Positions 19,879 to 62,068 of a stretch of DNA of 64,000 bases are shown here, in pieces. The stretch comes from Odontocerum albicorne (Eukaryota > Arthropoda > Insecta > Trichoptera > Odontoceridae): assembly GCA_949825065.1 (NCBI GenBank), contig OX463847.1, positions 40,644,831 to 40,708,830 of the forward strand, read 5' to 3'. The translations under genes were made by a program, and so were the position numbers. How positions within the stretch are numbered: the stretch's first letter is position 1; each line of letters opens with the position of its first letter. The notes under the pieces are model-generated. The model did not search any database and was not told the DNA's origin. It saw nothing but the letters and a program-made list of their open reading frames with translations.

Positions 19879-19933
19879 ATGAAGATATTAAGTGTCTTAA
19901 TCTCGATTTTGACTCTCGCTCTGGCTGAAACTT
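19879..19933 (+). CDS. gene A exon 1 (signal peptide)
   Basis: Encodes residues 1-18 plus one base; donor TT|gtaagta. Lys at position 2, a Leu/Ile/Val-rich core and LALAET form a standard secretion signal with likely cleavage near Ala16. Length (55 nt) and phase equal those of gene B exon 1. Confidence 0.85.
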
Positions 19934-22900: not shown

Positions 22901-25900
22901 CTGGAAACATCTTGCGAAATTCAACCCCTCACACATTATCACTCCAGAAAGACCAAAAATATTCATTCCACACTACACCGCACACAATCACAAATCTCAC
23001 ATAAATCCCTTCCACTCGTCATTCATCCTGAAAGCCCAAGTACTCAAAATCCTGTCGCAATAACAACCACGCTCCGATCGACTGTCTAAATGGTTTTCCT
23101 ACCTTTACTTTTATTGAAGTCGGCACGCCATTGTATGTAATGGGAGCCAAATAAGCATATTGCCTTTGGGCAAAAGAGGTTTTAACTCTTCATATACATA
23201 TGTAAATTACGTGGTAATGCATAGAATGATCTAAATCGGCGATGCTTAACCAGTGGTACGCATACCACTCGTGATGCGTGAATAATTTGTACAATATACC
23301 ATTTAAAATTTTACTATTCAAAAGAAGTGCTTATTTTCAATGTAAGCTTGAGGGATTGCTTCAACTCTGAGTCACTAGTATGGAACAAGAAATCACATAC
23401 ATGTGTGAGTGACAAAGCACGATATTCCTTTGAAAATTGTAATTATGATGTTCGGACTTGAACAGGAAAGAAAAGCGGTGTTGTTACTACAAAACAGAAA
23501 GTCACTCGTGAAGCTATGCTTACTCATTTTAATGTTCATAGTAAAGCTTTGGCAGTAAAAGTAATCCCTGAAGAACTAAAAGCTGTTCTAGATCAAATGG
23601 TTACTAGTCTAATTTACTAATACGAGTATGTACACATTTTTTTGCTAGAAACAAATTAAAAATTTGTAGTAATAACTTAAAAACATATGAACTCGGACTA
23701 GACAGCATCAAAATCTGCTAAGATGATAGTCCACAAGAGTATTTGAGTACCATTTATGATGTTTGAAAAGTAAGATGGAAAAAAATCGTAAAAGCTATAT
23801 GAGAAAGTTGTGTGGATGTGGAAGAAGTAAAATGTGTATGTCGAGATAGTAAGTTTGGGAATCTGTCCTTTCTGTCTACGCCGACAGGGAGATGGCGTGA
23901 TGGTATGTGTGTATGTATAACGTATGAAAGTGTATAGTCTTGACTTTCTATATGTATACAAGACATATGTTATTTTTGTTAGTAGTAATGAAATTTTCGA
24001 TTTTTGGTGGTACGCATTTATGAAAAGCTTGAGAGCAGCTGATCAATCCATTTAAATTTAATTAATGTTGTTCACCTCATTTAAACTGGTTTAAATGTGT
24101 GTGAACATACCATATCAAGTTTACCAATAGCTCTCAATCTTTTGTATTCGTTTTGATTGATCTCAATTACTTTAGAATATGTTGCTGTTTTCTTAGTTGG
24201 AAATATTTTTTTCATCCTAAAAAATATATTACAATTAAATTTTCTCTCAAAATAACTGCAAATATTTTTTCTGTAAATCTATTAGGATAAAAATCTTTTA
24301 ATATTTTCTACGTGTAATTTTAAATACTTGGAAATATGAAAAAGTAAAAAAAATATATAGAAACATCACACTGATTCACTTCTAGGATAGTCAAAGAGGA
24401 CAGAGCGCCAGATATTCTTATCTCGATAAAGATATTTCGACTCTTCCACATCCATACACCTACTCTTACAACTTCTACGATTTATTTTACTTCTCTCAAT
24501 CCTATTTTCCTTGGTCTCCCTCTACCAAGCCTTCCACTTTCATTTATACTGTACACGTTTTTGTAAGTATTTCGTCTTTCATTCATTCCACATGCCCAGA
24601 CCATCTCACAGTGCTCTTATTCTTCTTTCTCAACTTATCAGCATTCAATTCACATTCATCTTTGATCAATTCATTCTGTATTCTGTCATATATAGTCACC
24701 AATTGTATCCTTCTAAGTATACATATTTCTACAGCATTTATGCGACTCTTTTCGTTTTTTTTCCACGTCCACGTTTTACTCCAACATATCAAAGTTTGTA
24801 CTAAAATACTGTAGAGGACTATCTCCTTAGCAGATCTTTATTTTTTCCGGTTCGATTATCAAAGTTATTGTGCCCCCATTAACAAAAGCAAAAATATAAT
24901 AAGGCGAATCGAATGTCTTAATAATGCGAAAATATTTCGTTTATATATATAATAAAAAAATGTATAAAATTTGTTATATGTGTAGCTTGATTTGATTTTC
25001 TTAGCTTAGTGGTATAAACCGGTTTTTTTTAAATTAAATTTACTATAGTAAAAAACAAAATTCAAATCCAATCATATTTGTTTGAACAAGATTGACAATA
25101 TAAACCCTTTACAACATAAACTTATTTGTTTGAACAAGTTTGACAATATAAACCCACTAAATCGTATAGTATACAATATTTAAGTAATACTGAGCGGTAG
25201 CTGAGCGTTATTGGTCACAATAGTTGAGAATCAATGCTTTAATTTTACTTTCGCGCTGGCACAGTACCAACAAGAAAGACATTTCGCATAAAAAATATTT
25301 GCTTAAAATAAATACGAACTATTTTTAAATAACATTTAACCATATTTATTTAAGTTAATTTAATGGAATTAAATAAAAGACAAATAAAAAATAAATAAAA
25401 AACATGGTTCCGGCCGGGATCGAACCGGCGACCTTCTGCGTGTAAAGCAGACGTGATAACCGCTACACTACGGAACCGATACGAGAGCGAATCAAATATT
25501 TTAATATAAATGGCTCATAAATTTGTACAAATTGTGTACTTGTAGGTATATTGATTTTTCCTAAATTTTATATTTATATCGTGATAAATTTTTCAAGTTA
25601 TATTTATTTTACGTATTTATTTGTAATGATAATTTATTTTGTTAAATAAATTACAAATTTTCGTAACTTAATTATAACATACATTCATTCACCATCACGC
25701 CATTTCCCTGCTAGAGTAGACAGCAAGGGCAGAGCGCGAGTCTTTCATATCTTGACACATATTTAACCGTTTCCACAGCCATACACCTCCAAAGATTTCT
25801 CTTACTTCTTATTTTGCCTTATCAAAACATAATTCCCTTGATACAACCACACTTGGTCTTCTCGTTATTTCTATACACACATTTGCACTGTATTTGTTCC

Positions 25901-28900
25901 TTTTCCACGAACGACAGTATTGCCTACATATACCATACGACGACAAACTCTAAGTAATGAACCATCTCAGTGGTACAAAGCTGATCACCTCATTTCCTAT
26001 TAAAAAATTCCAAAATTCCTCCGTAAAGTTTCATAGACCCAATCACCACACAATGGACACAACAATCGATCGATTGATAAGTGTAGATAAAATTAGTAAC
26101 CTCTGCGTTATCTAAGCTGGGAGTGTAAATGGTAGAAACAATATTTTATATTTTACTACCTTAAATTCCTTACCAAATTAAAGTTAAATAACTTAATACA
26201 ACATTTATATACTAAATATAGCATGACTTTTACTGCAATATAATTTGATGGCAATATCATTTAAATTGGGCAATTAACCACTAAATTTATAGTTCAAGTT
26301 CACAACTCGCACATATATTACAAGCACTATATAAACTATCATAACATCATCAGATATTAAACTATTTTACGCTCCACAATTTCACATAATTATTAAAGAT
26401 ATTCCCATTAAATAATGAAATATGCAATATTGTGTATTCAAATTTAGTTTATCATTCTGATATTAACCGGTACATGAAACACTATACCATACCTTATGAA
26501 AAAAGTATAGAAAACTTTTGTTATATTTTTAAATGTATTTAAATGATAAATATATAATACATATGGTAATATGTTTACATAATTTTAGAAAGAAAAAAAA
26601 CAAGACAGACAAAAACAAGCAATTTTAGTTGACAAACTCAAATTACATCTGGGTTTGTTGCCTGTCATATGTTATGACTCTAGTAAACTAGGGTTTTGCA
26701 TCTTACTGAAGATATAGGAAGAAGAGAAAATGGAATGGTACTTTTTATCGGTTGATAATTCTCAGTAACTTGATAAGCTAAGAAATGAACAGCCCATTAC
26801 ATTATCTCCTCCATGCATATATCAAAAATATATTTAAGATATCCGAACAGCTAAGAAAAGCATATTTAAAATATCCGACAACCTGAGAAAATACCTCGTG
26901 TGGAAGCCTCCGGGGAAAATTAATAGATTTTTTTTTCTATGTGATCTTGATACATCAAATGGATGAAAACACATTGAAAAATGTTGAAAAAAATCTCAAG
27001 TACTTTGACGTACATTGATAACGCAAATTCTCGAATACTTTGGCAAACATTGCATTTCACCAATGATTTTAAGGCTTCATCATCAAAGTTCGATGGGTTC
27101 TTCTTTAAATGACGTATCTCCATAACGAAATTTCACAAACCAGTTTCGCACTTGCCGGTCAGTTATGGTTTCTTCGCCACACACACTGCATATTTTTTCA
27201 AATGTCTCCATGGCCTTTTCCCCTACTTAAACTCCTAGAACATTGCGTGAGGAATATGCACTTTCGATTCCTTCATTTCACTAACTTTTACTATTTTAAT
27301 ACGATGTGTAAGCTGTCTTTTTGATTGACTTTTACTATTTTAATACGATGTGTAAGCTGTCTTTTTGACTGGTTTTCACTATTTTAATACGTGTAAGTTG
27401 TCTTTTCGACTGACTTTTACTATTTAAATACGATGTGTAAGCTGTCTTTTTGACTGACTTTCACTATTTTAATACGATGTGTAAACTGTCTTTTTGACTG
27501 ACTTACTATTTTAATACGATATGTAAGCTGTCTTTTTGACTGACTTTTACTATTTTAATACGATGTGTAAGCTGTCTTTTTGACTGACTTTTACTATTTT
27601 AATACGATGTATAAGCTGTCTTTTTGACTGACTTTCACTATTTTAATACGATGAAGCTGTCTTTTTGACTGACTTTTACTATTTTAATACGATGTATAAG
27701 CTGTCTTTTTGACTGACTTTTACTATTTTAATACGATGTATAAGCTGTCTTTTTGACTGACTTTTACTATTTTAATACGATGTATAGGCTGTCTTTTTGG
27801 CTGACTTTACTATTTTAATACGATGTATAGGCTGTCTTTTTGGCTGACTTTAACTATTTTAATACGATGTATAAGCTGTCTTTTTGACTGACTTTCACTA
27901 TTTTAATACGATATGTAAACTGTCTTTTTGACTGACTTTTACTATTTTAATACTATGTAAGCTGTCTTTTCGACTGACTTTCACTATTTTAATACGATGT
28001 GTAAGCTGCCTTTTTGACTAAATTTTACTATTTTAATACGACATGTAAGCTGTCTTTTTGACTGACTTTTACTATTTTAATACGATGTGTAAGCTGTCTT
28101 TTTGACTGACTTTTACTATTTTAATACGATGTGTAAGCTGTCTTTTTGACTGACTCATTATTTTAATACGATGTGTAAGCTGTCTTTTTGACTGACTTTT
28201 ACTATTTTAACACGATGTGTAAGCCGCAATTTACTATTTTAATACAGTATGTAAGCTGTCACTGTCGTTTTTAGGCTAAGGGATACTTGTTTACTTCGAA
28301 CAGGTAAAACTTGTCAACTATGATGAGACATTCGGATCGCTAATGAATCATTACAATTTGTTCTCTGTAGCAGAACTTATGACTCAGTACAATATTGTTA
28401 ACTAATAACTAGAAAACAGTTATTTATGACTCAGTACAATATTGTTAACTTATAACTAGAAAAAATACTTGAAACGAGAAAGTTTAATATTTCAAAATTG
28501 TGTTTATTCAAAATCAATAAAATGTAATAAAACAATTACAATAATTTGTGATTTAAATAAATAAATATGGTCTATTTGATAATACGCATGTTTCCTAGCC
28601 CGGGGGTTGCGGGTTCGATTAGTTTTAGCCTGATTTTCACTTAAGATCTCTTTGGCATGTTTTTGGTTGGTTAAAAAAGATAAGCATACGAAGACTGTTG
28701 ACAGCAAAAAAAATAGTTTTGTGATTATTTTCCATATGTTCTGGATATTTATTGCCATTGGTTTAATTTGTTTAACATAAAATTAATTTTCCATCGTTTC
28801 ACAAATTAATTTTCAAAGTGTTTCTCCTATAAAATAAATTTATAAGTTTAACGATAGTGGGCTCAGCAATAATACTCGTTAATAATTATTATGAACGAGT

Positions 28901-31900
28901 TTAATTAGGAGTGCTTCAATCTTTGAAGGCAATCTGGCGAAAATTATTCGGCTTACTTGAAATAGTACTCAACTAATAATGTAATGAACACTTTCATATC
29001 TTGTTTACACATTTCAAGTTTACACATTTCAACCTAGTACTCAATTTGATCTGTGTGAATACACGTTTTAGTAAATGAACGAATAATTTACCGAGTGGAT
29101 TATTCAATCCTTGAATTTGTACTCGTTACGTATAAACGATCACTTGACAAATATGTATCACTCGGCAAAGCAGGAGTCCAAATTCTCTGCTAAATTAGTA
29201 TTAAATTAGGTCAGTATTAACATTCGTTCCAGTAAAAAGTGAGGAATCAGCTGAGTAAATAGGTATTTAGTGCTTGGGTAAGCACTCGTTATGTGTAAAC
29301 AATCAATTGGCGAATAAGTTTTACTTGACCAAGCAGAGGAGCTCGAATACTAAACTCGGTTGGCATAAACATTCGTTTTAGTAAAAATCTAGGAATTTGC
29401 CAAGTGACTGGGTGAGTATCGTAATCTGGTGAGCATTCGTCACAATTTAATATTAATTCGGTGAGAAATTGTAATTCAGCCGAGCGGGAAACGGAACGCT
29501 AAACTCGGTATATATAAATACTAGTTTAATAAAAAGCAAGGAATTTGCAGAGTAAATGGGCGAGTATTTAATACTCGGGTAAGTACTCGTAACGTGTGAA
29601 TAATCGTTAGTTGAATATTTTTCACTCAACTGACCAGAAGAATGAGTGCACGATCAAGTTCTCTTCATTTGTATTACGTGACACACGTTTACGGTTGATC
29701 TTAAGCATAGGAAAATTTTGCCTTTTCTTTCATGTTTACTTTCAGCATTGTTTCTACTTTTCTTATTATGTAAAATAAAAAACTCCAGATAGAATTTGAT
29801 TGTGAATTGAAGAAGTTATAGAACAACATAATAAATTATATTCTATCGCTTGTAGCTACCTGGACCGATCTCCGAATCAAATTCCAGTACAGCGGAGGCC
29901 TAGAAAATGTGGACTCGTTCTGGAAGATCGGAAGAACTCTTACGGATGCCCTGGACGATGGATGGGTCACGATCAATAACCGAAATGACCTGGGTCTTAC
30001 TACTGCATGTTTCTCTGGAGAAGATGTCAGGGCTTGCGGCCTTTACGACTCTAATGGATTTATAGCTGGAATGCAGTTAGCTGTAAGAGATATGAATTAT
30101 TATACAAGTTTTAAAAAAACAATTAGATTGCACATTGGTTTAATTTTGACACACGTTGTGAAAAACGTTAGTTGAAGCTTTTGGGTTAATCGAGAACGTG
30201 ACCTCTTTACCCTTTCTCTGTTATTGTGAGTGTGGAATAGATATATCAATAAAGCCCAAATGTTTCCGACGTGAGCATGATAGAAGTGTATGGACAGATG
30301 CCACGCCTACAGCATTATCAGGTAATGTTATGGTTAAAATTTGTCGCGTCCACCGTCAGTAGTAGAACCGTTGAGAACGTGTTATTTCATTATATTCTTA
30401 AATGTTAAAAATGTAACGTCGTATGCAAAAAAAATATTTCTGGTTTTTCCCTTCTTTTGAATGAAACTTGATAATCGCACGATATTCATTTTTTAACATT
30501 TCAGAAAATATGAAACAACACGTCTTATATCGGCTCTAGTTGACATTACTACTGAGGGAAAAGATATCAAATTTTATATGTAACATTACCTCACCATGCC
30601 TGGGCGTAGCCTCCGTGGTATCTCTCAATATTTGATCTACTTGTTTAAGTCCGAAACTTTTCAATCAACCTTAGTGATATAAATTGAAAAATAGTTTCAT
30701 GGGTGTAGTTTTTATAATTAGTGATATGATTTTGGTGTTTTTTGGGTTATTTGTACATAAATTTGGGTTATTTGTACATAAATTTGCCTACTTTTTCATT
30801 TCATTAATTTATAAAATTGCCATCTTTAAATATTATATCAGAGTTTTTTTTTCATTTATTGTTTTAATTATTTATACTGTGATCATACATCAAACATACT
30901 TGTGTATATACTAAAGCCACATCAAAGTAAATTATCAAAAAAGAAATATTTTTCTTCCTTCGTCATCAGCCTGGTTGACTCCAATATTAGATGTATGTTT
31001 CGATTAGGTATATATCATGGGCACATTGCTTCCAGTTGCTCCCAGCCACTTTCTGATGTCACCCGACTATCTTGGTAGGGTGCTTCCAACACTTATTTTC
31101 CCTATCCTTCGTCGTTCTTCCAGCTCTTTCAGAGTCCACCTATCACAGGCACATCTAAAGATATGTCCTGCCCAGTGCAACCTCTGGGTGGAAACCCTCT
31201 CAGTGACATTTACGATTTTGGTTTGCTGGTTTATTCATTCAATCGTTTTCCTGTCCCGTGATGCGTAATTTAACTTAACCCTTTAACGGGCATAAACAGA
31301 AATCGGTCGCATATGCGACCACCCTTATGGTTATACTTATAAGGATTCATTTTCTTTATAAAACGTTTTTAAGTAGCACAAATGTCAAATTGGCAAACGT
31401 TGTGAACGAGCAGAGGTCTTATTTAAGACGGATCGTCGTGAAGTTAGCTGCATGTTCAGTAGCAACGATCTAAACATCCGTTCAATTTATTGTCAAATAT
31501 GTAAATAGGTATTATAAGTAAATCACCATTCATTATATCTCATATAAGAATTGTATTTCCTAATACAACTTAAACTTAGATAGTATTACCTAAACATTCA
31601 TTGGTCACTTGTGCGGCCATTGACATACCCCTTAAATGGGCACAGGTCTCATATGCGACCGCCACATTTCCAAAAAAAAATTTAAAACACTTTTTCTAAG
31701 AAATAAAGTTGATTTGATACACATAATAATGATTTATTCAACAAAAAACTCAATATCTCAAAAATAAAAACTTGCCTTACAAAGGGTCAATACTATTTAA
31801 ACGCTACTTGATAAAAATAATCTTACAGTAAAACGTTGTTTATATCTAACTTACCTTTTAATAACATATATTTACAGTAGACTCTCGATTATTCGGGGGG

Positions 31901-34900
31901 GTAGGAAAAAACTACCTGGATTAAAAACCCTCATCAAGAAAAAAATATACTTAAAATTATAGCACACAGATATGTGACCCGGAAATAAAAAAAGGAGTCC
32001 ATATAAACAATTAAAAAATCGATATTAAATAATAATTTAACTGCCAAGAACGCTTTATTTAAATCTACAATTTGGCATAATGTGTCAACTCACTTGCATC
32101 AAAAGATACCGCGAAATCTAAATGCGCCTTAATAATAATTTGCGAATTGCGGTATATGGCGTGTTCGCAATTTCGCCATATTTATTTTGTGTTACTTGTT
32201 ATTAATTTCTCCAGTTTTATTTTCTGGTATAAATTATGTTGTGGAATGAAAAGGTAAGGTATTTGTAACATATATATTTTTTTAATTGAAAAAATCAGAT
32301 ATTTTACTGCCCCAGTTAATGTAACCCCAGCTGGTCAAGAGTGTACTGTATCAAACTTTGTAGAAAGAAATAGCGTATTTTTTGTTATAAAAAAACATCA
32401 AATAAAAATTCTAAATAAAACAATCATAGATACCCCGATCAGACGTCGAAGGACGAGGAGTACCATACAGCTTCCGCAATTTCCCCGTTTATGAGATGAA
32501 GATGTTGAACGGAGACGAATACTGGACCTCCATGTTCCTCACGGTCAGTCCAACCACCCTGGCTGCCGGAGGAAGAACTATCTTCGACAGGTTGGGAGAA
32601 GGACTGTGGCTGAAAAATGGATCTTCCTACACTGAAGTACCGACTCAAGAACGGGATATCATCAGATCGACTCCTTACACAAAGCAGAATTGCATACCAA
32701 ACATGGGTCAGTTTTAACCGTATTTTCCTATATAATATTAAAAGTTAACAAAACAGTAATTGGTTATGGTTAATTTTTACATAGTTTTCACATTAACATC
32801 AACATTTTAACCAGTTATTCGTAACTAAAACTGTATTTTTTTAGAATTAAGGTTTAAATTTTGAAGATGACGTCAATTATTTGGTTAAGTAAAACTGTTT
32901 ACTGTCAACAAATAGAAAATATGGTTGGATCGAATTATTGATATTTTGAAAGAAAGAAACGTAATAAGTCAGTGAAGTCACGGGAGTTGTATGAAATGTA
33001 TATGGGTGTAGAAGGAGTGATTCTACACCCATATACATTTCATACAACTTCCTATCTCAACACACGTCCTTCATGTGTTGAGATAGGAAAGTTTACCACT
33101 CTATACAGCAGGGAAATGGCTTGAAAGTTTGAATTGTATAAAGCACATCTGATCGAGCCAGGAAGATCATTTCAAAGTGAAATTAATGTTGGCATGATCC
33201 AAAGTCAAACAGTATGAACTGCATAAGAGGATGTAGAGAAAGACTTAAATATAAAGCCATAAAGATTATTAGACATAAGATATACATTAAAAAACAAAAA
33301 TTCTTTATTGGAAAATTAAAAACAAAAGTCTAATTAAAAAAACAACGAAACATTAGGTCAATCAAAATAAAATAAAATATTTATTGAATCCCCTTTTAAA
33401 TGGAGACATTAAAATTTATCATAACTCACTCGTTAGGTTAAACTTTCATTACTCATTTTTTTTACCAAATCTAAATCAATTGAGATCAAATTTTTGCCTC
33501 TGTTTGAAAACAGTTTTTTTTTTAGATTTAACTAAATCAAGAAACAAATTGATCTTGCTCTTGACGCTCCATATCTTTCAGATCGAAATTACCGTCTTTG
33601 AAACGCAAAAACCACCAACGAGCTGTCCTTTCATTCGTAGCATCTTCACCGTACACTTCGTAAAAGCAAATTCGCGACGGAACACATGTATGAATGATAG
33701 AGACGACGCTTTACAAAGCCGATTATGGCCGACAATCTCTTTCTTAAGCCCGAGGTGTATTACTTACCGCCAGGTACTTATATATACATATTATCACATC
33801 GTGTCCTTAGCGGACCAGGCAGAGTGAACATATCTCCAAACTGTTCTACCCAAGCGTACAATTTTCGCTTCCCCCACATTCAAACATCTCGTTATGCAGA
33901 ATCTTCTATAATGCATACTTTTCGCCCTATCTTCTATCTAAATTTAATAAATTTTATTACAGTCTGCTTCTTCAGGTAACATCTTCTGTCGGGGTTAGCC
34001 ACCACCATGGCAATTCTTACCTTATTTACTGCAACCCTGAACAACTCAGTAAAACTGCACCCAAACCATAGCCGCACCCAAACCACTTCCGCAAGTTTCA
34101 AACCAAAAATGCGGCGTCTTCCTTTACATTATATTCTATTATTTTTCTCTAGATGATCAGTTATGTTATTGTACATGATCAGTTATCTTGTAGATGTAGA
34201 TGATCAGTTATCTTGTTCCTCTCATTATGCGACCGAGATGCTGCAATATGCGATCCTTCATAGTTATAGTTCTCTGTCACACACGAGGAAGTATTTCCAC
34301 ATTCATAATATTATACAATTTGTACGGTAACTCTTGAGGATAAGTTAAGTACAGTACAATCGTAACCCATCAAAATAGCTCAAAACAGAATAAATCTACC
34401 AAAACAGCCCCAACAAAGCATACGGCATACACAATAACCCCAGTAAATTGATTAAATGGTATAGATTTGCTTTGTTTTGTAATGTGTTTGCCTTATACTA
34501 GGTTTTTCCATTATATAATACTTTTTATGTCTTAAATTTTCTTTATGGTTATTTTTTCATCTTTTGTATCAAAAGTTCATTTGATCGTGAAAATAAAAAA
34601 AAATGTATTATAGATTGCTAACGAATATTTTTCAAATGTATCATCTAATATAGTCCAAAACATCTGTTGAAGGGTGATTTTGCACTATTGTTAGTAAGTC
34701 TTAAGTGTATAGATAACTGTGAGCAGTTTTTTAAGGCTGTTTTAACTGTGTTTATTATGTGTGTTATGTGGTCTGCTTTGTCGGGGTTGTTGAAGTTATT
34801 TTGTCTTGGACCATTTTATTACATTGCAAAATATTATAATTATTAATCGTTGATTCAACACAAAATTCCATAAAACTGATACGTGACTAGATGAGAGCTC

Positions 34901-44330: not shown

Positions 44331-44339
44331 TAATTGTTA

Positions 44340-44765: not shown

Positions 44766-44945
44766 GATCTTTAATATTATCTGTACAAGGAATAAGACAC
44801 CCATTTCTTTAATATTGTCTGTACAAGGAAAAAGACACCCATATCTTTAATATTGTCTGTACAAGGAACAATACACCCAGATCTTGAATATTGTCGGTAG
44901 AAGGAACAAGACACCCAGATCTTTAATATTATCTGTACGGGGTAA
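44766..44945 (-). repeat. minisatellite of about 44 bp x 4, derived from LINE RT codons
   Basis: The unit read on the minus strand encodes TDNIKDLGVLF and continues CTTGTACAGACAATATTAAA. This is the DxIKDLGVLF motif at the edge of the adjoining LINE fragment. Copies differ by a few bases. Confidence 0.85.
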
Positions 44946-44953
44946 AGGTACTA

Positions 44954-46204: not shown

Positions 46205-46344
46205 TATTATAGATTCTAGAGTAAATCGTTTTATTTTTAACCCTTGTGAGTTGCTGTTTGAATTTTGTATTTTGTATTTCTTGAAATAATATTTTTTTAC
46301 TATTTATTTATTAATTTAAAATTTCATTGTAAACCAATGTGGTG

Positions 46345-46830: not shown

Positions 46831-46862
46831 AAACAGTGTTTTTTTTAGAAAACTAACAATAA

Positions 46863-46868
46863 TTTATT
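46863..46868 (-). terminator. poly(A) signal of gene B
   Basis: AATAAA on the minus strand about 97 nt after the stop codon. Confidence 0.5.
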
Positions 46869-46964
46869 TCAGTAAATAGTCAACACCCCACTTGATACAA
46901 ATTGAGGCGTTCGTTTTCTTTGTCATTTTTTTTATAAACTTAATAAACGTAAAATCAAATGTGT

Positions 46965-47281
46965 CTACGGTGTTGGCAGTGGTACAACGCTTTCAGTAGA
47001 CTGATCACAGGGAATGGTCCATGGTTTCTCCACAAAGTAGGTGTGGATTGAAATTACTCCATACTCGTCAGCTCCATCTGAGAGGCATGGAGGACCCAGT
47101 GGGACAGTGGCCATAACGGCCTGTTTGTTGATGGCATCATAGTAGTTCCTCAAGACAGGCTTGGTCCTTCCGTTGAACTGCCAGCCAAGGCCGATCATGT
47201 TGCCTTCCTTGATCAGGAGGAAGTAGGGTTGAGCATCTTCGCAACGCATCGCAGTGGTCATATTGTAGTAATAATGGATTC
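46965..47281 (-). CDS. gene B exon 4 and stop
   Basis: Acceptor ttttttcag|GAATCC; stop at 46967-46965. Residues 187-291. Confidence 0.92.
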
Positions 47282-50200
47282 CTGAAAAAAATACATGTTT
47301 TTATTCGTCTTATTATCTATCTTCCTCATATGGTCATACAACTCATGCAGAGTTTTAGCTTTCTGAATGATTTTTTTCCAAACCGATTGGTCACTCGCCG
47401 TCTCCTTCCAGTTTCCGTCTACTAAATATCTTCAAAAAACCTTTTCTGTCACGGTCTACTAAGTGGTCATCTTCTCTGGTGCAGGGGTTGGATCTTTGTT
47501 GGCTTTCACAATTGAGATATGTTTGCATTTTTTATCCATGCCAACCTTTGTGTCCGTATATCGCTGGTAATATATTAAGTAGGTATCTCATTAAATTTCG
47601 AATTTCTTTAGGTAGACAAATTTATTGAGTTTTTCAAAGCCTCCAAGAAAAGTGCGTTCAGTTAGATTATTTAATTGGTCGACAATAAGTGTTTTCATCT
47701 TGCATATGTTTATTTCAAGACCTAATTATAGGTTACCAAATAAATATTTTATTACAAAAAATCTTTTAAGTTCTATTTGGTTGGCTTAGAAGAAGCTCAG
47801 ATTCCACCCTTAAAACAGTATGTATAAAAGCAAATATACGAGTATGTTAATGAGTGAAATATTAAGTTCTTATTACGTGGGTCGTCCAGAAAGTAAATAA
47901 CGTTTTGGAATAACTAAATAAAAACCAAAGATATCAACACAAAACTTTATTAACAAAGTCACAGTACCTTATTCTATTTTTCAATTTAGTCGCCATAGCT
48001 GTCAAGGCACTTATTATAACGTGGAACCAATTTTTCAATTTCGATGTTATACTCTTCAACCGCCAAAGATTTGAGCCAGGATGTCACTTCTTGTTTGAGG
48101 TCTTCATCGTTTGCGAACTGTTTTCCACCCAAAAATTCCTTTAGTTTCGGGAATAAGTGAAAACCACTTAGTGCCAAGTCAGGGCTGTAAGGAGGATGTC
48201 CAAAAATTTCCCACTTAAGACGTTGAAGTTCTCGCTGTGTTCGTGCTGATGTAAGAGGCTGCGCATTGTCATGAATCAAAACCATCTTTCCCGACAACAT
48301 TCCACGTCTCTTGTTTTGGATGGCGCGTCTAAGTCGTCACAATAGGCCTCTGAGTTTATTGTGTGTCCTCTTAGCATGAACTTCACGTAGATCAAACCCT
48401 TTCGGTCCTAAAAAACTGTTGCCATCACTTTTCTGGTGTTGACATTCAATTTTTCTTTTCCGAACACACATTTTTTTGTAGCCAAGGTGCTCTGTCACTA
48501 TTTCATGTAGGAGCGATCGTGAAATTTGTGGGAAAGATTCAAGTACTGTGCTTAAAGTTGCCTATAAATTTCGATAGACAACATTTTGTGCATTCAGAAA
48601 ACGAATGACACTACGCACTTCACATTTGGCGGGATTTTCGATAGGCGCAGTCATTTTGAAAGGCTACAGAACAGAGATGCAAGACCGTTCAGCAACAAAA
48701 CTCGGCTCGCACAGAAGCGGGAAAGGAGCTGACTGGCACGGATACGATCGCGGTGGTAGGGGATCGTCGCAGGGCGTGGTGCGCAATCGTTCTTTACTTT
48801 CTGGACGTACCTAGTATTTCAGCAGATTTAAAAATAAATAAATCAATCTAGTTAAAAAAAATTGAAAAACATATAGGAATCACCTACCCATATTTGGTAT
48901 GCAGTTCTGCCAAGTGTATGGAGTACTGCTCTGGATTGTTGGCAGATCTGTTGGCACTTTTGTAAAGCTATTTCCACTCTTGAGCCAGATACCTTCTCCG
49001 ATCTTCTGAATATTGTTGGGTCTTCCGTCACCTTCGACCACCGCGGGGTCCACCAGATAGTAGGTTGAGGTCCAGTAGTCAACGTTATTGATCATCTTCT
49101 TCTCATAGACTGGGAAATTTTTGAAGTCATATGGAATACCATGGCCTTCTACGTCACTAGGTGGAATCTGAAAATCATGATATAATTTCATCAACCTAGT
49201 TTTATCAATGAATGAAGGTTGATTGTAACTAAATCGTCTTAAGATATCTAAACAAAAAAGTTTCCATTAAATAATAAACACTACTATTATACAGGTACTT
49301 TGAAAACCCTTTGTCTAATGGTGTTCTAATATTCTCTTTGAAATAACCATGTTTTTTTGCAGTGTCTGAAGTTGGAGCGTAAAGTTTCCACGTTGACAAA
49401 ATCCAGAGAAAAAATATTTGTTCGAAAATCCTTTTTATTTTATTTCTTACCATAATCATCTTGGTTGTTCCCTCTTTTCTGATTATCATCATCATAAGGG
49501 TCGTCAATCATCTTTCTCCAGCACAAATTATATTTTGCCATATGAAGCGTCTCTTGAAATGAGTATCCCAATACTTTTCCAAGTGGTTCCTCCATTTGGT
49601 ACTTTCCCCTCGCTTTGTATCCAAAGGCTTGTAAGATTCTTCCCACACTCAGCACAGCGAGACAAGTCACAGTGGGATATCTTCTTATTCAGGATATCGC
49701 CATCTTTTATTTGGAATATATTTATACTCCTTAATGATTGACCTAATACCCTTGATCTCATTTTCATTTGTTTTAACTGCTCCAAGTTATTAGTGCTTAA
49801 AAAAAATCCAAACAATTTCGTAATATGTCCAATCGTAAGTAATCTTAGACTACATTTATCTATCAACGCCAACGGTGACCTTATACTTATTGGTAAGAAT
49901 GTCTCTATTGTATAATATCATTAACTGTTCCACCACCCCCTCTTATCTTGCCGAAAATTTTCAGCGTCTTTCCAATCATGGATTAGCGCTACGCTCAACC
50001 AGAGATTGTTTAGTGGTCTTTTCAGTTCACCGCTCCTCTTTCTTTACGTCGTCATTTACTGTCCATGCAGTGAGACTCTGGAATCAGTTACAAACCAATA
50101 TAAGACTCGCTCTGTCCTTGGCATGCTTTAAGAAGCGACTGAAAAAACTCTTAATTTCTAGTCAGTAAAATAACGTGTTTCATTCCTGATTTTTTCTTTT

Positions 50201-53200
50201 CCTTTCCTCTCCACCATCCTTTCCTTTCCTTTTGATTGATGATATCTCACTTTATATGCAAAATAATGTTCGGGTGATTGTCCGCTTTGTGGGGTTCGTG
50301 GGCATGTGCTCACGTATATGTTTATGGATTTCGTGGAGATGGATAGTCATTTGAATGATTTATGCGACCACGTAACTTGCTTCATTTACTTTTGTCTAGT
50401 TGGTTGGAAGAGATTGCCGCCTGGCAATAAGCCCACCAAATTGTATTGCAATAAAAGTGTTAAATAAATAAAAATAAGAATATTAAGGTGTCTTATTTAT
50501 TTCATCATAAGTAGCCATTTTGCATTCAGTGTTTGGTGTATTTTAAGTTTCGCTATTGAGTCTCTTTTAACTAGACAAAATGAAAAGGAGTAAGGAGAGC
50601 TCAGTTAGATTCCACTAATCCGCACTCTGTTAATTATGGGGGACAAAATAAGTCTCTGTCAACGTAATCAACACTTAACGATTGGAGTCTTCCTTTTTTT
50701 TATTATGAACGCGAGTTCACTTAGTGATGAAAAAAGAACTGCCCAAATGGAGCCCTCAGACTGTGACATCTGAGTGTAAAAATAATGGTAGCTACAGCAA
50801 ACTTAAAGAGAGAAGTAAAATTACTTTGAGCAATATAAAGGTATGTACTTATAAAGCTACTTAAAGCCAAGAACTTCCCAGCAAGTAGCCAGTACTTTCA
50901 TATAAAACGTCATAGGCAACAACATTTTAATTGACCCTTTAGGAACGGCTGTTGCTTAATGGAGAGATGAGGATGATCGTTGGTTTAATAAAACTCGTTT
51001 GAAATCGGAATATGCAAAGAGGTATTAACGTCGGTATTTATAATATTTGAAAGGTGCGCGAGACGGCGCAAGAGATATGTCGCCATTTCGTCTCCGCCTC
51101 ACAATATATTTATTGTCATCACGTAGGGTATTCATTGTTTTGTAGGACAGCGCGGAAGATATGTCACTGTCCCGTTCTCCGCTAATAGTGAGTTCAATGG
51201 CCGAGCAGGCGACCTTCGCCCAGTGCTTGCCTCGCATTCCTTACAATGCGAGTTCAATGACCGAGCGGCCAAGGGTCGCCTCAATGGGTTCAGTGACCGC
51301 ACGCATGGTCGCTACAACCCCATTAGATTGGAGCTGCCTATCGAGTACGGTAAGGGCAAAAGCCGGGTTTAGTTTCTTCTAAGCGTGTTCTTTTAAATCT
51401 TTCAACGACAATGAAATGACAATAAACCTAAACGCTACACTTCAGTTCAAGCTCTCTGTACCTCAACTCACATTGACAAAAAAGACGATAAGTTACCTTT
51501 ATCGAATGACATTAACACTAAATAATCCACATGTTGTAGATATGGAGAACAACAATGATTGATTTAAACAAAATGTGAAGTTAAGAAAAATAATTAGCTA
51601 TTTAACGTACCATAACTAAGAACGTTAATGTAACATGGATAACTAAGACGCACCCTAATACAGAAAAAAGTTAAATCTTCAACCTGAGAAGACCCTCATC
51701 ATTGTTGCTAATATCGATAGTCCTGTTCATTACTCAGACAACTCCAAATAACCTGTTTTGAGATAATGAGTAAAACAATATTATAATCGTCACCATAAAT
51801 CAAATACTAATAATTTTTGCACGATTTTTATATATTTTATCAATAGATTTTATCAACATCTATTGATAAAATATATAAAACTCGGGCAAAAATGATTAGT
51901 ATTTGATTTATGGTGACGATTATAATATTGCTTTTCTCATTATCTCAAAACAGGTTATTTGGAGTTATCTGAGTAATGAACTGGACGATCGATATGATAA
52001 CTAGTCAAATTGTCAGACTTCAAAATCAGATCACTTACAGCCAAAAGAAGTCCAGCAATAGTCCCTTTCTTGTCGTACAGGGGGCAGACACGGTGGTCGG
52101 TCATGTAGCAGAGAGTGGTGGCTCCAAGGGAGTTTGTGGTGGTAACGGGATTCCAGCCATCCAGCAGAGCATCAGTTAAGGTTTTGGGGATCAGCCAGAA
52201 GGAATTCACGCCTGCACCTGCTGCGGAGTTTGAATACTTCACTCGAAACTCGAGCCATTTTGCTGAAAACAAATTGTTTATTTTATTTCAAATTAAACTC
52301 ATTCTTTTTATGGTGTTAACGGCACTAAATTATTTCCACTCATAATTCTGCCACCTGGGCAGCACTGAGCGTTCCATAAATCAAGTTCTCTGCAGTCCAA
52401 GATATTGGACATATCGGGTACTGCAGCAAGAGTCGCATGAACTGCTTCTCAAAGCAGATACATAGTAGATCCATAACACAACATTCCCCATTTTGACATG
52501 TTGTCCCCGGTTCTCCCAATTCCTGTTCGGAGCATGTTAAGAGATTCCATGTGCTCAAGGAAAGTTCGTAGCTTAAATTAGACTGAAAAAAATATTTTTT
52601 AATAGAATAAATAAACTTGAATGATCGGAAGAGTTGGCCGCCAAGCAATAAGCCCGCCAGATTGTATTTACAATAAAAGTGTTAAATATATGAATAAAAT
52701 ACTTATTTTTAATTTCATATTCACCACTGTTTTATTTGAGCTTACTACTTGTTTCAAAGACCCCCGTTTTCCTTGTCAGGTGAAGTTGAACTAAATTAAG
52801 TCTAAAATACATTTTTTCTCATTTTAATAGGTACATGAGAAGGGGAGGGCAGAAATGGCTAATAATGGGAGGGAAGTAGGTAAGCGTCAAAAGGATGGCT
52901 TTTGAACGGGAAACATATTTAATAATAATAGTTCAATAATGAAATTGACTTGATTGTTTATAATGTTGAGACTTAATTTAAATTTTTTTTTAATCTCCAG
53001 ATTTTTTTAAGTTTCCAGCTACAATTCCCCTCGGCTCATGTTCAAAGAAGTGAACTCAAATAAAACAGTCGTGAATACGAAATAAAAAATAAGTGTTTTA
53101 TTTATTTTATTAAAAATTAATAAACATGACACCACAAAGTGAAACAAACATTTTTTCTAAGATTCTAGAAATGAGAAAGATATATTAGCCTTTTCTTCAA

Positions 53201-56200
53201 TGTATTACTTCGTCAAAAAAGTATAATATTTAACAATAGGTATCGAACTAGACAAAGTATACTCGTATCATCATTTAGGCAGTCGATTGGAGCGTGGTTG
53301 TTATTGCGACAGGAGTTGGAATACTTAGGTTTGCAAGAGGAATGGCTTGTGGAAAAAGTTTGTGTGAACTCTTGAATGTGGTGTTTTTTGTCGTTTTATA
53401 TTTATATTTTTGTTTTTACTTTTATGATTATGTGCGTTATATTGTGGGATGAATGTTTTTGGCCTGTCTGGAGTGATGCAGTGTGAGAACTTTGATTTCG
53501 CGTAATGTACACATATGTAATTAAGTGTCATTGCTTATCAGGTTGATGAGAATGTGCAACGAGGTTTTATATAATAAAAAATCGGAAAGAAGTATCGATT
53601 TATTTTTTCATGATATATGTCCTCAGTGAAATACAGGAAAAAGCCTAGTTTACTGGGGACACGATAAATGAAAGGCAACAAACCCAGAACAAAAAAAAAC
53701 CTCAGACATCTATGGTACAGAACAAAGAGCGATTACCCAAAATATGCTCACCTTGTCGAACTTTTCACGATGTGTAACTATAGAAGCCTCGATACAAGAA
53801 GGCAAAGGTACTTAAGGTTTTCCAAGGCGGCTTTAACTGTCCCGCGATTCTACAAGCACTAAGTTTATAACAGGAGTTGGAATACTTAGGTTTGCAAGAG
53901 GAATGGCTTGTGGAAAAAGTTTGTGTGAACTCTTGAATGTGGTGTTTTTGTCGTTTTATATTTATATTTTTGTTTTTACTTTTATGATTATGTGCGTTAT
54001 ATTGTGGGATGAATGTTTTTGGCCTGTCTGGAGTGATGCAGTGTGAGAACTTTGATTTCGCGTAATGTACACATATGTAATTAAGTGTCATTGCTTATCA
54101 GGTTGATGAGAATGTGCAACGAGGTTTTATATAATAAAAAATCGGAAAGAAGTATCGATTTATTTTTTCATGATATATGTCCTCAGTGAAATACAGGAAA
54201 AAGCCTAGTTTACTGGGGACACGATAAATGAAAGGCAACAAACCCAGAACAAAAAAAAACCTCAGACATCTATGGTACAGAACAAAGAGCGATTACCCAA
54301 AATATGCTCACCTTGTCGAACTTTTCACGATGTGTAACTATAGAAGCCTTGATACAAGAAGGCAAAGGTACTTAAGGTTTTCCAAGGCGGCTTTAACTGT
54401 CCCGCGATTCTACAAGCACTAAGTTTATACGAGTATGTATCTAATAAATATAGCCTTGCAAGGAATCACCCTCTGCTCTATATACATACCAACTTACAGT
54501 ACGAATATCATGGCTAAACACTCAGTCACGCGTGGTACAAAGATATTGAACCAACTGAATGGATATATTCTCGGCACCGCCTAGCAGTATGAGAATAATC
54601 CTGGAAGATATTCTTCCTAACGAATAAGCTAACGCTAGAAGCAGACCCTTTTTGTGTAACAAGAGAAATACGTGCAAAGTGGATAAAAAAAACATCCATT
54701 GTGTATGTCCAAATTAAATTACCAGTTGTTTTTTTCGCAAATTATGTACATATATTTCTTGTCATGTGTGAAATAAATAAAATAAAATCATGTCATGTTC
54801 CTTGTGAGGTAGTCCAAAATAACAGATCTCTATATTTTTATATCCAAGCATACGATTTTCCCGTTTTCCACATTTTTACATATTACTTTACAGTTCATAC
54901 TTCTCACTTTATCTTCTTTTAAAATCCAGTCCATTTAATCCAGCTATATTTTCATCAATCTTCCTTTTCCTCACACACCTATCACTTCAGTCTTGTATAC
55001 TTAGTCATTGTTTCAGAATTAATTTTCTCCATATATCCAAATCATCTTAACGCTTCATTTAACTTAACACGTCAAAATTCCCCCAAATCATCTTAACGCT
55101 TCATTTTACTTAACAAGTCAAAATTCCTCCAAATCATCTTAACGCTTCATTTTTCATTTTACTTAACAAGTCGAAATTCCTCCAAATCATCTTAACGCTT
55201 CATTTTTCATTTTACTTAACAAGTCAAAATTCCTCCGAATCATCTTAACGCTTCATTTTTCATTTTACTTAACAAGTCAAAATTCCCCCAAATCATCTTA
55301 ACGCTTCATTTTTCATTTTACTTAACACGTCAAAATTCCTCCAAATCATCTTAACGCTTCATTTTTCATTTTATTTAACACCTCAAAATTCCCCCAAATC
55401 ATCTTAACGCTTAATTTTTCATGTAACTTAACACGTCGAAATTCCCCCGAATCATCTTAACGCTTCATTTTTCATTTTACATAAACACTTCAAAATTATA
55501 GCCAAGAAATAAAAACGATTTATTCACTAAATAGATTTATAAAAAAATCGACTCGACGTAACAAGAAAATTTTAATTTTACTTGTTATAACGAAATATAT
55601 CTTATATTAACTCAAATTTGTCTGCTTTTTGAAAAAAATATCACTTTTTAAATTTCAATTCCAAAGAACCTTACTCATTTTAATAAGAAATAACTTGACA
55701 ATCACCTTTAAATTTTCAGCAAAGGAACTTTTGTATTTTATTATGCCATTATAGACTTTGTCGACGAACAAATTGCTTTTAAGTTTTGATTTATTTTGAT
55801 GAAGTGCCCTCATATTTCGTTCATAGTAAAAAACACTTTATAACAATTCACACTTTAGCCAAAACTTCAATTATAACTAGACTACGGATTGTTTTAAAAA
55901 AATCCAGTGACGTATTTATCTTTTTTTTTATTAATATGGTTCTCTAACATTCACGTGTTTTGTTAATTTGGAGAATCATGTGTTAAAATTTAAACGAGTA
56001 TTTTAGTCAAAGTTCCTTTACAATATATATCATGCCTGTATTTTTTTTATATTAACACATACAAATCCCAAAATATTCACGTGTCTTTTATTGAACAAAA
56101 AGACTGAAACATACTTTAACCTTTCCTTCCCGGTGTTGGGTATCTTCTACACGTTGCTTAAAATAACCATCAATATCTCTATAAATATAATAAATACAAG

Positions 56201-59200: not shown

Positions 59201-62068
59201 TTGTTACAAATTAGCAAAAATGTGGCAGTTTTTTAAAATCAAATAACATTTGGTGACGTTTGTCAAAAGCAACTACGTTAGTCCGAATTGGCTAGGGATG
59301 GGGTATGCGATAATTGGATTTTCGATTTTTTTACACCTAAAATTAAATGTTCGTAATTAGTATTAATTCATAGTGGATCTTGGCCTATTTAAAGATAGAT
59401 ACAAATTATACAATACATTAGAAAGTCAGTATAGGGAAAATTAGGAATTAAAACGTCAGTTTAGAGAAAAACAGTTTTTCGATTTATAAAAAAACTATTC
59501 GATTTGTAAAAACACCGATTTTTTTACCCCATCCTTTTGAGACATGACATTTCAAATGTCACAGGGACCATCATCCTACATTTTTTCAAGTATACAAATA
59601 TTTTTTTTTAAATTTGGTTATCTCTTCAAACCAACAAAAAAACCATTATAGAGGCTTTAAATGAATACCAAACTAAAAATGTTTTTAAAAAAATTGAATA
59701 TCAAACTCAAAACCCCTGAGTTGAAAATCTTACCGTATGGGTCATGGAGGTTGGTGAAATATAACAAAGTCATTTTTAATCAGTTTAATTATGATTTATA
59801 TAATTTTTTATCTTTTCTATTTCACTAAGATTAATTTTGAATTTTCATCTATCGATAACATCTTTTATAACTTATTTTTTCGTTTATTTTCGTGATTATC
59901 TCTAATTTGATTTCTGATTAATCAAACTGTCAGCCTTATGAAATATGTCATTTTTAAAAACAGTAAAATTAAACAGAATGTTGAGAACTTAATTTGAGTG
60001 TTTTAATGAGAATCCAATATAAGAAGCCTTAAAAAGGTTTTTTTTATACCTAACCTAACCTAACCTAACCTTTCATTCTGGTGATTTCAAATGAATAAAT
60101 ATTTCAAATAATCTCGAGAGCATGGTTTACATTATTATGTAAAACATATCCTCTGTAAAAACCGTGATGTCGTAGTAAACAAAACACTAACTGCATATTT
60201 CATTCATTTATTTAATAAATAAATTGTTCAGAATAGATTAAAAAAGGCGGGGTCTGTGACGTGTAATAATGGTATATCTAGACGTGTTAGAGAGACGGGT
60301 GGCTTGTACAGTATTAGAAAGCACTTAATCACAACCCTGGGACGCTGGGACACAAGCTGAGACGACCAAGGTCTGAGTGAATGTGATGGAATACAAGTAG
60401 CCTGAACGAGTGGACTTGTTTTGCTAAATAATTAGTGTAAGAATTGTTATCTAGTTATAAGTAGTATGTAGGTGTTAATTATTTCTAAGATCTCATATAT
60501 TAAGATTGAATAAATAAAATAAAATGATATGTAGGAAAATAAGATTAAGTAAGTGCATAAATTATAACATATAATTAAGATTATTTAAGTAATAAATTTG
60601 TATATAGGTATAGCCTTGACAAATGTTTGTACAATAATTTACTTTGTTTAATAAAAAATAAAAAATCACAACCCTTTTTGAAAAATTTGTAATTGTTTAT
60701 GAACACTACACATACACTATAATCCAGCTAAAGCCAAATGTGTTACTAACACACATCGGCGGCTGATCTCGGGGTGCGTTGGTGCGCTGAGCCGGAGAAA
60801 TAATTCGTAATAACTAAATTATATATTCGCAAACATAACTTCCAAAAATATTTGTATAGATTAAATATGTATAAGAATACTTACAAATAATACGAATATT
60901 TCTATTTAAGTGAAAATTCAAAAAAAATTAAATTTTTTTTTTTTAATATAACTTTCAAATTGACCGGTCAAGTTTGCAAATTCATACTAGAGCTATCTCG
61001 AATATGCACCGGACGGAAACGCAGATTCATATAGGGCAGACAGAGACATACATTGATTCGATTTTTTTTTTGCTTTAAAGCAATAATAATAGGACAATCG
61101 ATATATGTGTTCATTAATATAAAAAATATATACATTTAGTGTAAGGATAGTAAGGGGGAGACTATTTCCATAAGATTAGGTTATTCCCCACATCTGGAAA
61201 CATATTTGGTAAGAAGACCGCAAGAAACTTTCTAATGGAATACGACTTTCAAAAAAACATTTATAGAATTTCCGATATGCCATAGAAACACATTCGGCTT
61301 TTGTTAAATAAATTCGCCAGATATTTTTACATGAAAGAGTTAGTAATAAATAAATACACTTAATATTATATTATTTATAGTCAAAGTATTGATATTGTGG
61401 AGGTTTAAAGACATTGTAATTTGTTTTATCAAACACTTTATTCCACTTTTTGTGACGGTATAACCTTACCGGTTTCAAGGCTTCACCTCATCATCAGAGG
61501 AGCACAAACAAGACTGAATTCTGTTCGAACTGATACCGACATATACGCTTCTAACGGGTAACATTCTGGTTAGGGGTGTGAGTGGAGGGAGAGAGGAGAC
61601 AATATATGTGTTTGCCAGATATTCACCCCGATGCACTGACTTAGAAATTTCTAGGGCATCTAATCTGTCCAATTTATATATCAGTAGTAACTGAAATAAA
61701 TTGGACAGATTAGAAACCCTAGATATTTCTAAGTCGGGAGGAACATCTAACAAACACATATATTCCCACCGCCGAGATTGTCTCCTCCTTCCCTCCACCC
61801 ATAGTCCCCAACCCAATTGTTTACCGTTAGAACCGTGTATGTCGGTACCAGTTCGAAAAGAATTCGGTCTTGTTTGTGCTTCCCTGATGATAAGGTGAAA
61901 GCCTTGAAAATGGTAGGGTTATACCGTTATAAAAAGTGGAATAAACAGAGTTTAATAAAACAAATTACAACACTAAGCATTAGTAAAAAAAATTAAATTA
62001 AAAAACAACTTACAAGTATCGGCGGCAGCGAAACCAACAAAGACCGTAATGATGAGAAGTAGCTTCAT
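46965..62068 (-). CDS. gene B: secreted six-cysteine protein, unknown family (4 exons, 291 aa)
   Basis: Minus-strand join 62068-62014, 52262-52039, 49167-48888, 47281-46965 (876 nt). All introns are GT-AG with phases 1, 0, 1, and exon boundaries fall at the same residues as in gene A. Exon 1 encodes the signal peptide MKLLLIITVFVGFAAADT. The mature protein shares with gene A the SFWLIPKTLTDALLDGW block (39-54), IPPSDVEGHGIPYDFKNFPV (94-113), YWTS, GEGIWLKSGNSFTKVPT, TPYTWQNCIPNM, CEDAQPYFLL, IGLGWQFNGRT and YGVISIHTYFVEKPWTIPCD. Cysteines 70, 78, 182, 200, 252 and 278 correspond to those of gene A. NMT at 193 is a possible N-glycosylation site. Family not recognised. The paralogues face each other, so an inverted duplication is likely. 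The product ends VVPLPTP and lacks the gene A C-terminal extension. Confidence 0.87.
47320..47720 (-). mobile_element. LINE RT fragment in gene B intron 3
   Basis: Minus strand: CKMKTLIVDQLNNLTERTFL, GGFEKLNKFVYLKKFEI and, near the end, TASDQSVWKKIIQKAKTLHE. The last is the terminal DRxxWRxxVxxAKxLHGL pattern of a LINE. Confidence 0.75.
47876..48814 (-). mobile_element. internally deleted mariner (939 bp) in gene B intron 3
   Basis: Imperfect TIRs (CGTGGGTCGTCCAGAAAGTA and CTAGGTACGTCCAGAAAGTA) flanked by TA (47874-47875, 48815-48816). The minus strand keeps MVLIHDNAQPLTSARTQREL with the second catalytic Asp, and HPPYSPDLALSGFHLF, where the third catalytic Asp is replaced by Gly. The N-terminal half is largely missing. 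Non-autonomous. Confidence 0.87.
48888..49167 (-). CDS. gene B exon 3
   Basis: Acceptor atgattttcag|ATTCCACC, donor ATGG|gtaggt. Residues 94-186. Confidence 0.92.
49440..49680 (-). other. unexplained coding-like block in gene B intron 2
   Basis: GC is higher than in the surrounding intron. One frame gives GRILQAFGYKARGKYQMEEP, LGKVLGYSFQETLHMAKYNL and an Asp/Asn-rich end DDPYDDDNQKRGNNQDDYG that runs straight into GTAAGA, a good 5' splice site. An overlapping frame is also open. I recognise no domain. It may be an exon of another gene, an old processed insertion or a retroelement piece. Confidence 0.3.
49875..50480 (+). mobile_element. CR1/Jockey-like LINE 3' end, best copy, in gene B intron 2
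   Basis: Open frame to 50168 with TPSYLAENFQRLSNHGLALR, VHRSSFFTSSFTVHAVRLWN and LACFKKRLKKLLISSQ, the RT C-terminus. The 3' UTR then runs to GGTTGGAAGAGATTGCCGCC, TGGCAATAAGCCCACC and a TAAATAAATAAA tail. The TTGCC-GCCT-GGCAA hairpin is perfect. It reads antisense to gene B. Confidence 0.9.
50481..51710. other. gene B intron 2, partly GC-rich stretch
   Basis: AT-rich except 51040-51370, which has GC-rich blocks with the repeated phrase GTTCAATGRCCGAGC (51193, 51249). A downstream AATAAA (51421) raises the possibility of a solo LTR, but I could not fix paired ends. Confidence 0.3.
51711..51995. repeat. long inverted repeat (285 bp) beside gene B exon 2
   Basis: Arms of about 135 bp, from ATATCGATAGTCCTGTTCAT to the centre near ATAGATTTTATCAACATCTA, and the complementary return ending GATCGATAT. 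Only scattered mismatches. It starts 43 nt inside intron 2 from the exon 2 donor. Confidence 0.9.
52039..52262 (-). CDS. gene B exon 2
   Basis: Acceptor gttttcag|CAAAATGG, donor GCT|gtaagtg. Residues 19-93; WLEFRVKYSNS corresponds to WTDLRIKFQYS of gene A. Confidence 0.9.
52340..52590 (-). pseudogene. possible decayed cysteine-rich (clip-like) exon in gene B intron 1
   Basis: A ttttttcag acceptor-like site at about 52585 precedes a GC-richer block reading LLTCSEQELGEPGTTCQNGE then CC. After an apparent frameshift it reads AAVPDMSNILDCRELDLWNA then QCCPGG. The GEPGT-C pattern and a terminal CCP recall insect clip domains, but spacing is irregular and the reading frame cannot join gene B exon 1. 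Low confidence. Confidence 0.25.
52620..52695 (+). mobile_element. LINE tail, very short copy
   Basis: GGAAGAGTTGGCCGCCAAGC, AATAAGCCCGCCAGATTG and ATAAAAGTGTTAAATATA: the terminal 70 bp of the CR1/Jockey-like family. Confidence 0.7.
52696..53279. other. gene B intron 1, AT-rich, nothing seen
   Basis: No coding bias and no repeat assigned. Confidence 0.5.
53280..54785 (+). mobile_element. R1-family element, interrupted and internally duplicated
   Basis: R1 sequence runs from 53283 (GTCGATTGGAGCGTGG) through CAACAAACCCAGA (53678-53690), resumes at about 54695 (TGTGTATGTCCAAATTAAAT) and ends with TTTCTTGTCATGTGTGAAAT plus TAAA tail. Between the two R1 parts is an inserted stretch of about 440 bp (from 54253) with a short frame RSLDTRRQRYLRFSKAAL, perhaps from another retroelement. 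The first part plus some of the insert is tandemly duplicated. Confidence 0.65.
53310..54429. repeat. 560-bp tandem duplication
   Basis: Copy 1 about 53310-53870, copy 2 about 53871-54429. I see one 1-bp indel (tttttt/ttttt near 53389/53949) and a C/T change (cctcg/ccttg). Both copies contain the same 64-codon frame. A recent event or assembly artefact. Confidence 0.93.
54930..55035 (-). mobile_element. LINE RT fragment adjoining a minisatellite
   Basis: TCATCAATCTTCCTTTTCCT, CACACACCTATCACTTCAGT and ATTAATTTTCTCCATATATC read on the minus strand as decayed LINE codons leading into the VLSKMK..ALRWFG segment. Confidence 0.5.
55036..55495 (-). repeat. minisatellite, 46-54 bp x 9, derived from LINE RT codons
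   Basis: Nine copies of AATCATCTTAACGCTTCATT plus TTTCATTTTACTTAACANGT plus CAAAATTCC. On the minus strand a unit encodes NFDVLSKMKNEALR, a stop in place of W, then FG. That corresponds to VLSKMKKGALRWFG of the LINE fragment at 38860-39060. The earliest copies lack an 8-bp duplication present in later ones. Confidence 0.9.
55500..56115. other. gene B intron 1, AT-rich, nothing seen
   Basis: No coding bias or assigned repeat. Confidence 0.5.
56120..56746 (+). mobile_element. TTAA-flanked MITE (627 bp)
   Basis: It lies exactly between TTAA sites (56116-56119, 56747-56750). Ends CCTTTCCTTCCCGGTGTTGG and, inverted, CCCTTCCCTTACGG, with CCCAACACCGG repeated inverted near the right end. The GC-rich interior (56330-56560) contains a 68-codon frame but no transposase motif. 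TTAA preference and CCY ends suggest piggyBac-like mobilisation. A partial relative is at 657-1166. Confidence 0.75.
56751..57680. other. gene B intron 1, no gene seen
   Basis: AT-rich. The patch at 57025-57110 (GCGACTGAGTAGTGGTATGC) may be a decayed SINE head. Confidence 0.45.
57681..57739. repeat. hairpin, 23-bp arms
   Basis: CAACTCCCAGCCCTTTGACC plus AAC, and its complement with a single mismatch, around a 13-nt loop. Confidence 0.9.
57891..57945 (+). mobile_element. MITE terminus, half copy
   Basis: AGTTCGGAAATTCTAGGATG, AGTCCTGTGACAGCTCACAA and ATTTGCCCCA equal the left end of the element at 58072. No second end nearby in the expected orientation. Confidence 0.75.
58072..58282. mobile_element. 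MITE with about 60-bp TIRs
   Basis: GTTCGGAAATTCTAGGATGA at the left and, inverted, GTTCAGAAAATGTAGGATGA at the right; both continue through GTGACAGCTCACAAATTTGC and CAATACAACCTT. An AT-rich core of about 90 bp codes for nothing. Family of transposase not identified. Confidence 0.85.
58575..58735 (+). mobile_element. tRNA-like SINE of a second type
   Basis: TAGCCGCGCGGTAATGCATT (A-box side) and GTCGGTTCGAAGCCTGCG (B box) are followed by CTCGAACGACACTGGCCC and a short 3' part ATAAGGATACATATGACTTC. The head differs from the main SINE family. Confidence 0.65.
59027..59215 (-). mobile_element. MITE copy, diverged and inverted
   Basis: AATGTAGCATGGTCCATGTG, ACAGTGCACAAATTTGTCCC and AACAACGTTCAGTAATTTTA match the reverse complement of 58120-58282. 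One end is lost. Another isolated terminus lies at about 59550-59590 (TGTCACAGGGACCATCATCC). Confidence 0.7.
59216..60045. other. gene B intron 1, AT-rich
   Basis: No gene seen; only the isolated MITE terminus at 59550-59590. Confidence 0.45.
60049..60070. repeat. short (CCTAA)n, insect telomere-type repeat
   Basis: Four full CCTAA units plus CC. (TTAGG)n is the canonical insect telomere repeat. This tract is far too short to be a telomere. Confidence 0.8.
60071..60756. other. gene B intron 1, possible LINE 3' UTR
   Basis: The stretch at 60270-60660 has mixed composition and ends in ATAAAAAATAAAAAATC, like a retroelement tail, but contains no readable codons. Confidence 0.3.
60757..60803. 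repeat. dispersed GC-rich motif
   Basis: CGGCGGCTGATCTCGGGGTG and TTGGTGCGCTGAGCCGG correspond to the block at 2045-2102. Confidence 0.55.
61454..61497 (-). other. hammerhead-like core, left arm
   Basis: On the minus strand: CTGATGA (61497-61491, canonical), GAGG/CCTT stem, GAAAC, CGGTA/TACCG stem, GTC (61456-61454). More canonical than the 4258 copy. Confidence 0.35.
61884..61930 (+). other. hammerhead-like core, right arm, decayed
   Basis: CTGATGA (61884-61890), AAGG/CCTT stem, GAAA (61906-61909), GGTA/TACC stem and GTT instead of GTC. Less complete than the left arm. Confidence 0.25.
62014..62068 (-). CDS. gene B exon 1 (signal peptide)
   Basis: Starts at the ATG ending at 62068; donor ACTT|gtaagt. 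55 nt, residues 1-18 plus one base. Confidence 0.87.

Follow-up and report, generated by a model that had tools for sequence, protein, structure and literature searches.

Within a 64,000-nucleotide stretch of the caddisfly Odontocerum albicorne (contig OX463847.1, forward-strand positions 40,644,831 to 40,708,830; hereafter the window), two convergent four-exon genes, A and B, encode homologous proteins with six conserved cysteines. The computed part of this account comprises the gene structure, the homology, the conserved cysteines, the constraint on the protein sequence and a C-terminal tail that A has and that B and a pair of relatives in Arctopsyche lack. The reading that we tentatively prefer, with slightly less than even confidence, is that A and B are ancient paralogues of a secreted, disulfide-held and glycosylated extracellular protein, with a site built on a motif and a histidine and with the tail anchoring A.

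Two convergent genes of matching structure

Gene A spans 19879-39563 on the plus strand and gene B 62068-46965 on the minus strand, their 3' ends 7.4 kb apart. Exon borders were taken from the DNA letters of the window and then joined by script. In gene A, the exons lie at 19879-19933 (55 nucleotides, signal-like peptide), 29856-30082 (227 nucleotides, cysteines 1 and 2), 32430-32706 (277 nucleotides, cysteine 3 and the start of a QNC[IV]PNMGxH motif) and 39151-39563 (413 nucleotides including the stop, cysteines 4 to 6 and the amphipathic tail), all on the plus strand. Their minus-strand counterparts in gene B are 62014-62068 (55 nucleotides, signal-like peptide), 52039-52262 (224 nucleotides, cysteines 1 and 2), 48888-49167 (280 nucleotides, cysteine 3) and 46965-47281 (317 nucleotides including the stop, cysteines 4 to 6, without the tail). 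All six introns are GT-AG, the donors of exons 1, 2 and 3 are in phases 1, 0 and 1 in both genes, and codon 187 contains the start of exon 4 in each. AATAAA follows each stop, at 39586 and 39621 for A and at 46868 for B.

The predicted products, of 323 (A) and 291 (B) amino acids, carry their cysteines at 70/79/182/200/252/278 and 70/78/182/200/252/278, respectively, and are identical at 145 of 289 residues in a BLASTP alignment (50%, E 5e-111). Thus, the preliminary description of this pair is confirmed from the DNA in its exon numbers, intron phases, 55-nucleotide first exon, position of exon 4 and matching cysteines, and its convergent order and paralogy agree with the coordinates, strands and identity found here. 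The joins of both genes are independently supported, since the Arctopsyche protein P0001 aligns without a break over all three of them and since three relatives are encoded by a single unbroken frame on short contigs (P0003, 310 amino acids on 2,092 nucleotides; P0010, 321 on 1,262; P0034, 293 on 1,243), which are probably spliced transcripts. When 28 relatives together with A and B were compared with the window (tblastn, E limit 0.01), the same eight exon stretches were found and no further copy.

Several other features lie in or beside the two genes. Intron 1 of gene A holds a tRNA-Val (tac) at 25405-25477 on the minus strand, called by both ARAGORN and Rfam (69.7 bits), and just upstream of the gene a tandem direct duplication, its copies shifted by 533 bases, occupies 18490-19566, the compared pieces being identical at the protein level. 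Intron 1 of gene B contains a direct duplication at 53428-54419 (shift 560 bases), composed of a repeat that recurs near 3.5-3.8, 8.4-8.7 and 22.6-23.1 kb.

Family members and their distribution

Three protein searches were run, with B as the query (7 matches among 903 candidates), with a nine-row alignment (26 among 7995 scored) and with P0003 (21 among 869, E up to 10). Combined, they gave 35 different proteins, 31 of them with an organism name; the seven recovered by B have E values from 3.6e-117 to 8.7e-41. The names attached to them are uncharacterized, hypothetical or unnamed protein. Two of the named relatives come from Arctopsyche grandis (Hydropsychidae), LOC143916318 (P0001) and LOC143923224 (P0002), and the other 29 belong to species that we take to be Lepidoptera. 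The latter, Bombyx mori LOC101741041 and 28 others, share the six cysteines and the QNC[IV]PNMGxH motif with A and B and, in the alignment search, are 30-38% identical to P0001. Among the matches listed, which are clustered and capped in number, each named lepidopteran species appears once; a Phthorimaea protein on a long branch of the tree (P0035) may be a paralogue.

These searches require shared exact words, and scoring in the alignment search was limited to the 7995 candidates with the most words in common; we make no claim that the family is restricted to Trichoptera and Lepidoptera. In Table 4 of a thrips study (PMC6286046), the name of the Amyelois member LOC106129042 is given to one transcript each from Thrips palmi and from Frankliniella occidentalis; both are reported to be up-regulated with tospovirus, at log2 fold changes of +2.47 and +2.06. 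Going by this annotation, the family may therefore extend beyond the reach of our protein searches and, if the label is true, would be wider than two orders and include infection-responsive members. The literature searched, with supplements and subscription papers outside its scope, otherwise held nothing recognisable as this family. The preliminary description had called the family unrecognised, which stands for its name and function but not for its existence, since members had already been predicted in Lepidoptera and Arctopsyche.

The distribution of the named matches bears on one functional alternative, that these proteins play a structural or protective part as minor components of larval silk or of silk-gland secretion, which we consider unlikely. 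Both orders with named matches spin silk, and the caddisfly silk literature, in the portions available (among PMC11092239, PMC9432349, PMC11906653 and PMC12661448), lists several secreted proteins whose function is not known, LAN32 and a CG3556-like pair among them. However, the sequences of the present family are neither repetitive nor compositionally biased, and LAN32 is described in those portions with seven exons, compared to four in A and B. Moreover, the family is not named in the same portions, from which the silk proteins are known here by description and not by sequence, and the thrips annotation, if right, would cut the link to silk-spinning orders.

Age and origin of the pair

Common ancestry of A and B is clear from their sequences; the time and manner of the duplication are a separate matter. 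The two Arctopsyche proteins, 62% (P0001) and 66% (P0002, short at its N-terminus) identical to B, belong to the same family, are both closer to B than to A and lack the tail as B does. The matches listed include no close counterpart of A from Arctopsyche, A itself never having been a protein-search query. In unrooted trees, B groups with the two Arctopsyche proteins (support 100/97 in the 35-row tree and 99/95 in the 29-row tree). With the 35 rows, an exclusive pairing of A and B is rejected by the approximately unbiased (AU) test (p 0.009), and so is a grouping of A with Arctopsyche alone (p 0.006). The placement of B with Arctopsyche, together with the rejection of the A and B pair, indicates that the A/B duplication predates the split from Arctopsyche.

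An inverted duplication that was both local and recent, leaving one copy redundant or decaying, would match the adjacency, convergent order and similar exon structures of the two genes, yet we regard it as barely credible. Synonymous sites are saturated (dS, the synonymous distance, is 2.27), and a blastn comparison of the two gene regions returned eight rows, of which two fall in exon 3 and the other six in repeats, so that the intron DNA in common consists of repeats only. Both reading frames are intact, each with six cysteines and GT-AG introns, and the rejection of the exclusive pairing by the AU test also weighs against this reading. Thus, of the inverted duplication of one ancestral gene put forward in the preliminary description, common ancestry stands, whereas the inversion mechanism does not draw support from the DNA similarity, the synonymous distance or the AU test; a tandem duplication with a later inversion, or a duplication that arose elsewhere, explains the pair equally well.

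Conserved residues and the C-terminal tail

Conservation was read from an alignment of 35 rows, consisting of A, B and 33 of the 35 relatives (P0004 and P0028 excluded). Cysteines 1 and 2 are kept in all 34 rows that reach that far and cysteines 3 to 6 in all 35. Also invariant in every row are Q183, N184, C185, P187, N188, M189, G190, H192 and H269, the two histidines numbered on P0001, and the QNC[IV]PNMGxH motif is carried by both A and B. The comparison of A with B by the method of Nei and Gojobori (NG86, 287 codons) gives a nonsynonymous distance (dN) of 0.45 against the dS of 2.27, indicating constraint at the protein level. Glycosylation sequons are distributed unevenly: NMT is present in B and absent from A, and NG[ST] is present in A and Arctopsyche and absent from B.

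A tail beyond the sixth cysteine is found in 28 of the 35 rows, A included, and is amphipathic in all 28, with a helical moment above at least 95% of shuffles. It is absent from B, P0001, P0002, P0023, P0026, P0034 and P0035. Of the 28 lepidopteran rows tested, a set to which P0004 does not belong, 25 have a tail like that of A. In the structural model of the Plutella protein the tail forms a helix at 297-320, of which residues 305-318 have a predicted local distance difference test score (pLDDT) below 50.

Beyond these sequence facts, all steps of the preferred mechanism are ones that we infer. The product would be exported as a soluble extracellular protein, its six cysteines would pair into three disulfides, and it would be N-glycosylated. 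The near-fixed turn formed by QNC[IV]PNMGxH, with H192, and the second invariant histidine, H269, may together form a working site that binds a ligand or acts as an enzyme. The amphipathic tail of A could tether it to a partner or to a lipid surface, and B would then be the untethered form.

Known families, folds and foreign origins

The profile check for an ordinary known family that the preliminary description had proposed turned up none that stands in Pfam, NCBIfam or PDB sequences. In Pfam, A matched no family and B only NCH2 (E 0.19; 12.3 bits, the cut-off being 27), and among the 33 relatives five unrelated families turned up, each in a single member (best E 0.003). NCBIfam gave no family for A or B and three unrelated ones for the 33 relatives, again one member each (best E 0.0056), and PHROGs gave two, each in one of nine members (best E 0.067); we take the single-member matches of relatives in NCBIfam and PHROGs to be chance. 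PDB sequences gave no match up to E 10.

Insect odorant-binding proteins are likewise secreted and have six conserved cysteines. However, their chains are about 150 amino acids long with a small all-helical fold, whereas members of the present family have about 290-320 residues. This identity was rejected, as there is no Pfam match and the models of P0001 and of the Plutella protein are strand-rich. The secondary structure program DSSP assigns 15 strands of at least three residues to the P0001 model, and the Plutella model is similar. A carrier of lipids or small molecules, with a sheet around a pocket as in LolA or ependymin, is improbable in our view: the structural likeness to ependymin-related and LolA/LprG-like proteins lies within noise, unrelated folds score equally high or higher in both lists, and there is no sequence match to either. 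We hold it similarly doubtful that the fold is absent among solved structures and bears a new extracellular catalytic or ligand site on the motif and the second histidine, and that in caddisflies the family split into a surface-bound A and a free B.

Two further candidates were rejected. Both halves of the P0001 model show a strand, a helix and four strands, yet a profile comparison of one half with the other gave E 0.36, a score equalled or exceeded by 101 of 150 column shuffles, so that an internal duplication is not supported. The other candidate was an origin in viruses or prokaryotes: phage sequences gave no match, and the pattern matches in viral (5) and prokaryote (23) contigs included no relative by tblastn.

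This family marks a clear gap in insect annotation: a ten-residue motif is fixed and the cysteines are invariant in caddisflies, moths and butterflies alike, yet no curated family entry was found here. Bombyx mori has a member, and the function is therefore testable in a laboratory insect, while the A/B pair offers a natural contrast between tailed and tail-less forms.

Surrounding sequence

The 7.4-kb spacer between the 3' ends (39564-46964) contains mariner-type transposase pieces and tandem repeats, including a 372-codon mariner-type frame at 45019-46134 on the minus strand (Transposase_1, E 3.5e-20; HTH_48, E 1.6e-8). Other mariner-type pieces above Pfam cut-offs lie at 5629-6456, 43681-43923, 62879-63199 and 63054-63326, all on the minus strand, and a DDE_3 match at 47989-48336 (minus strand) is below its cut-off. 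Tandem arrays occupy 27276-28224, 41524-42031 and 55054-55497, with units of about 44, 50 and 53 bases, respectively.
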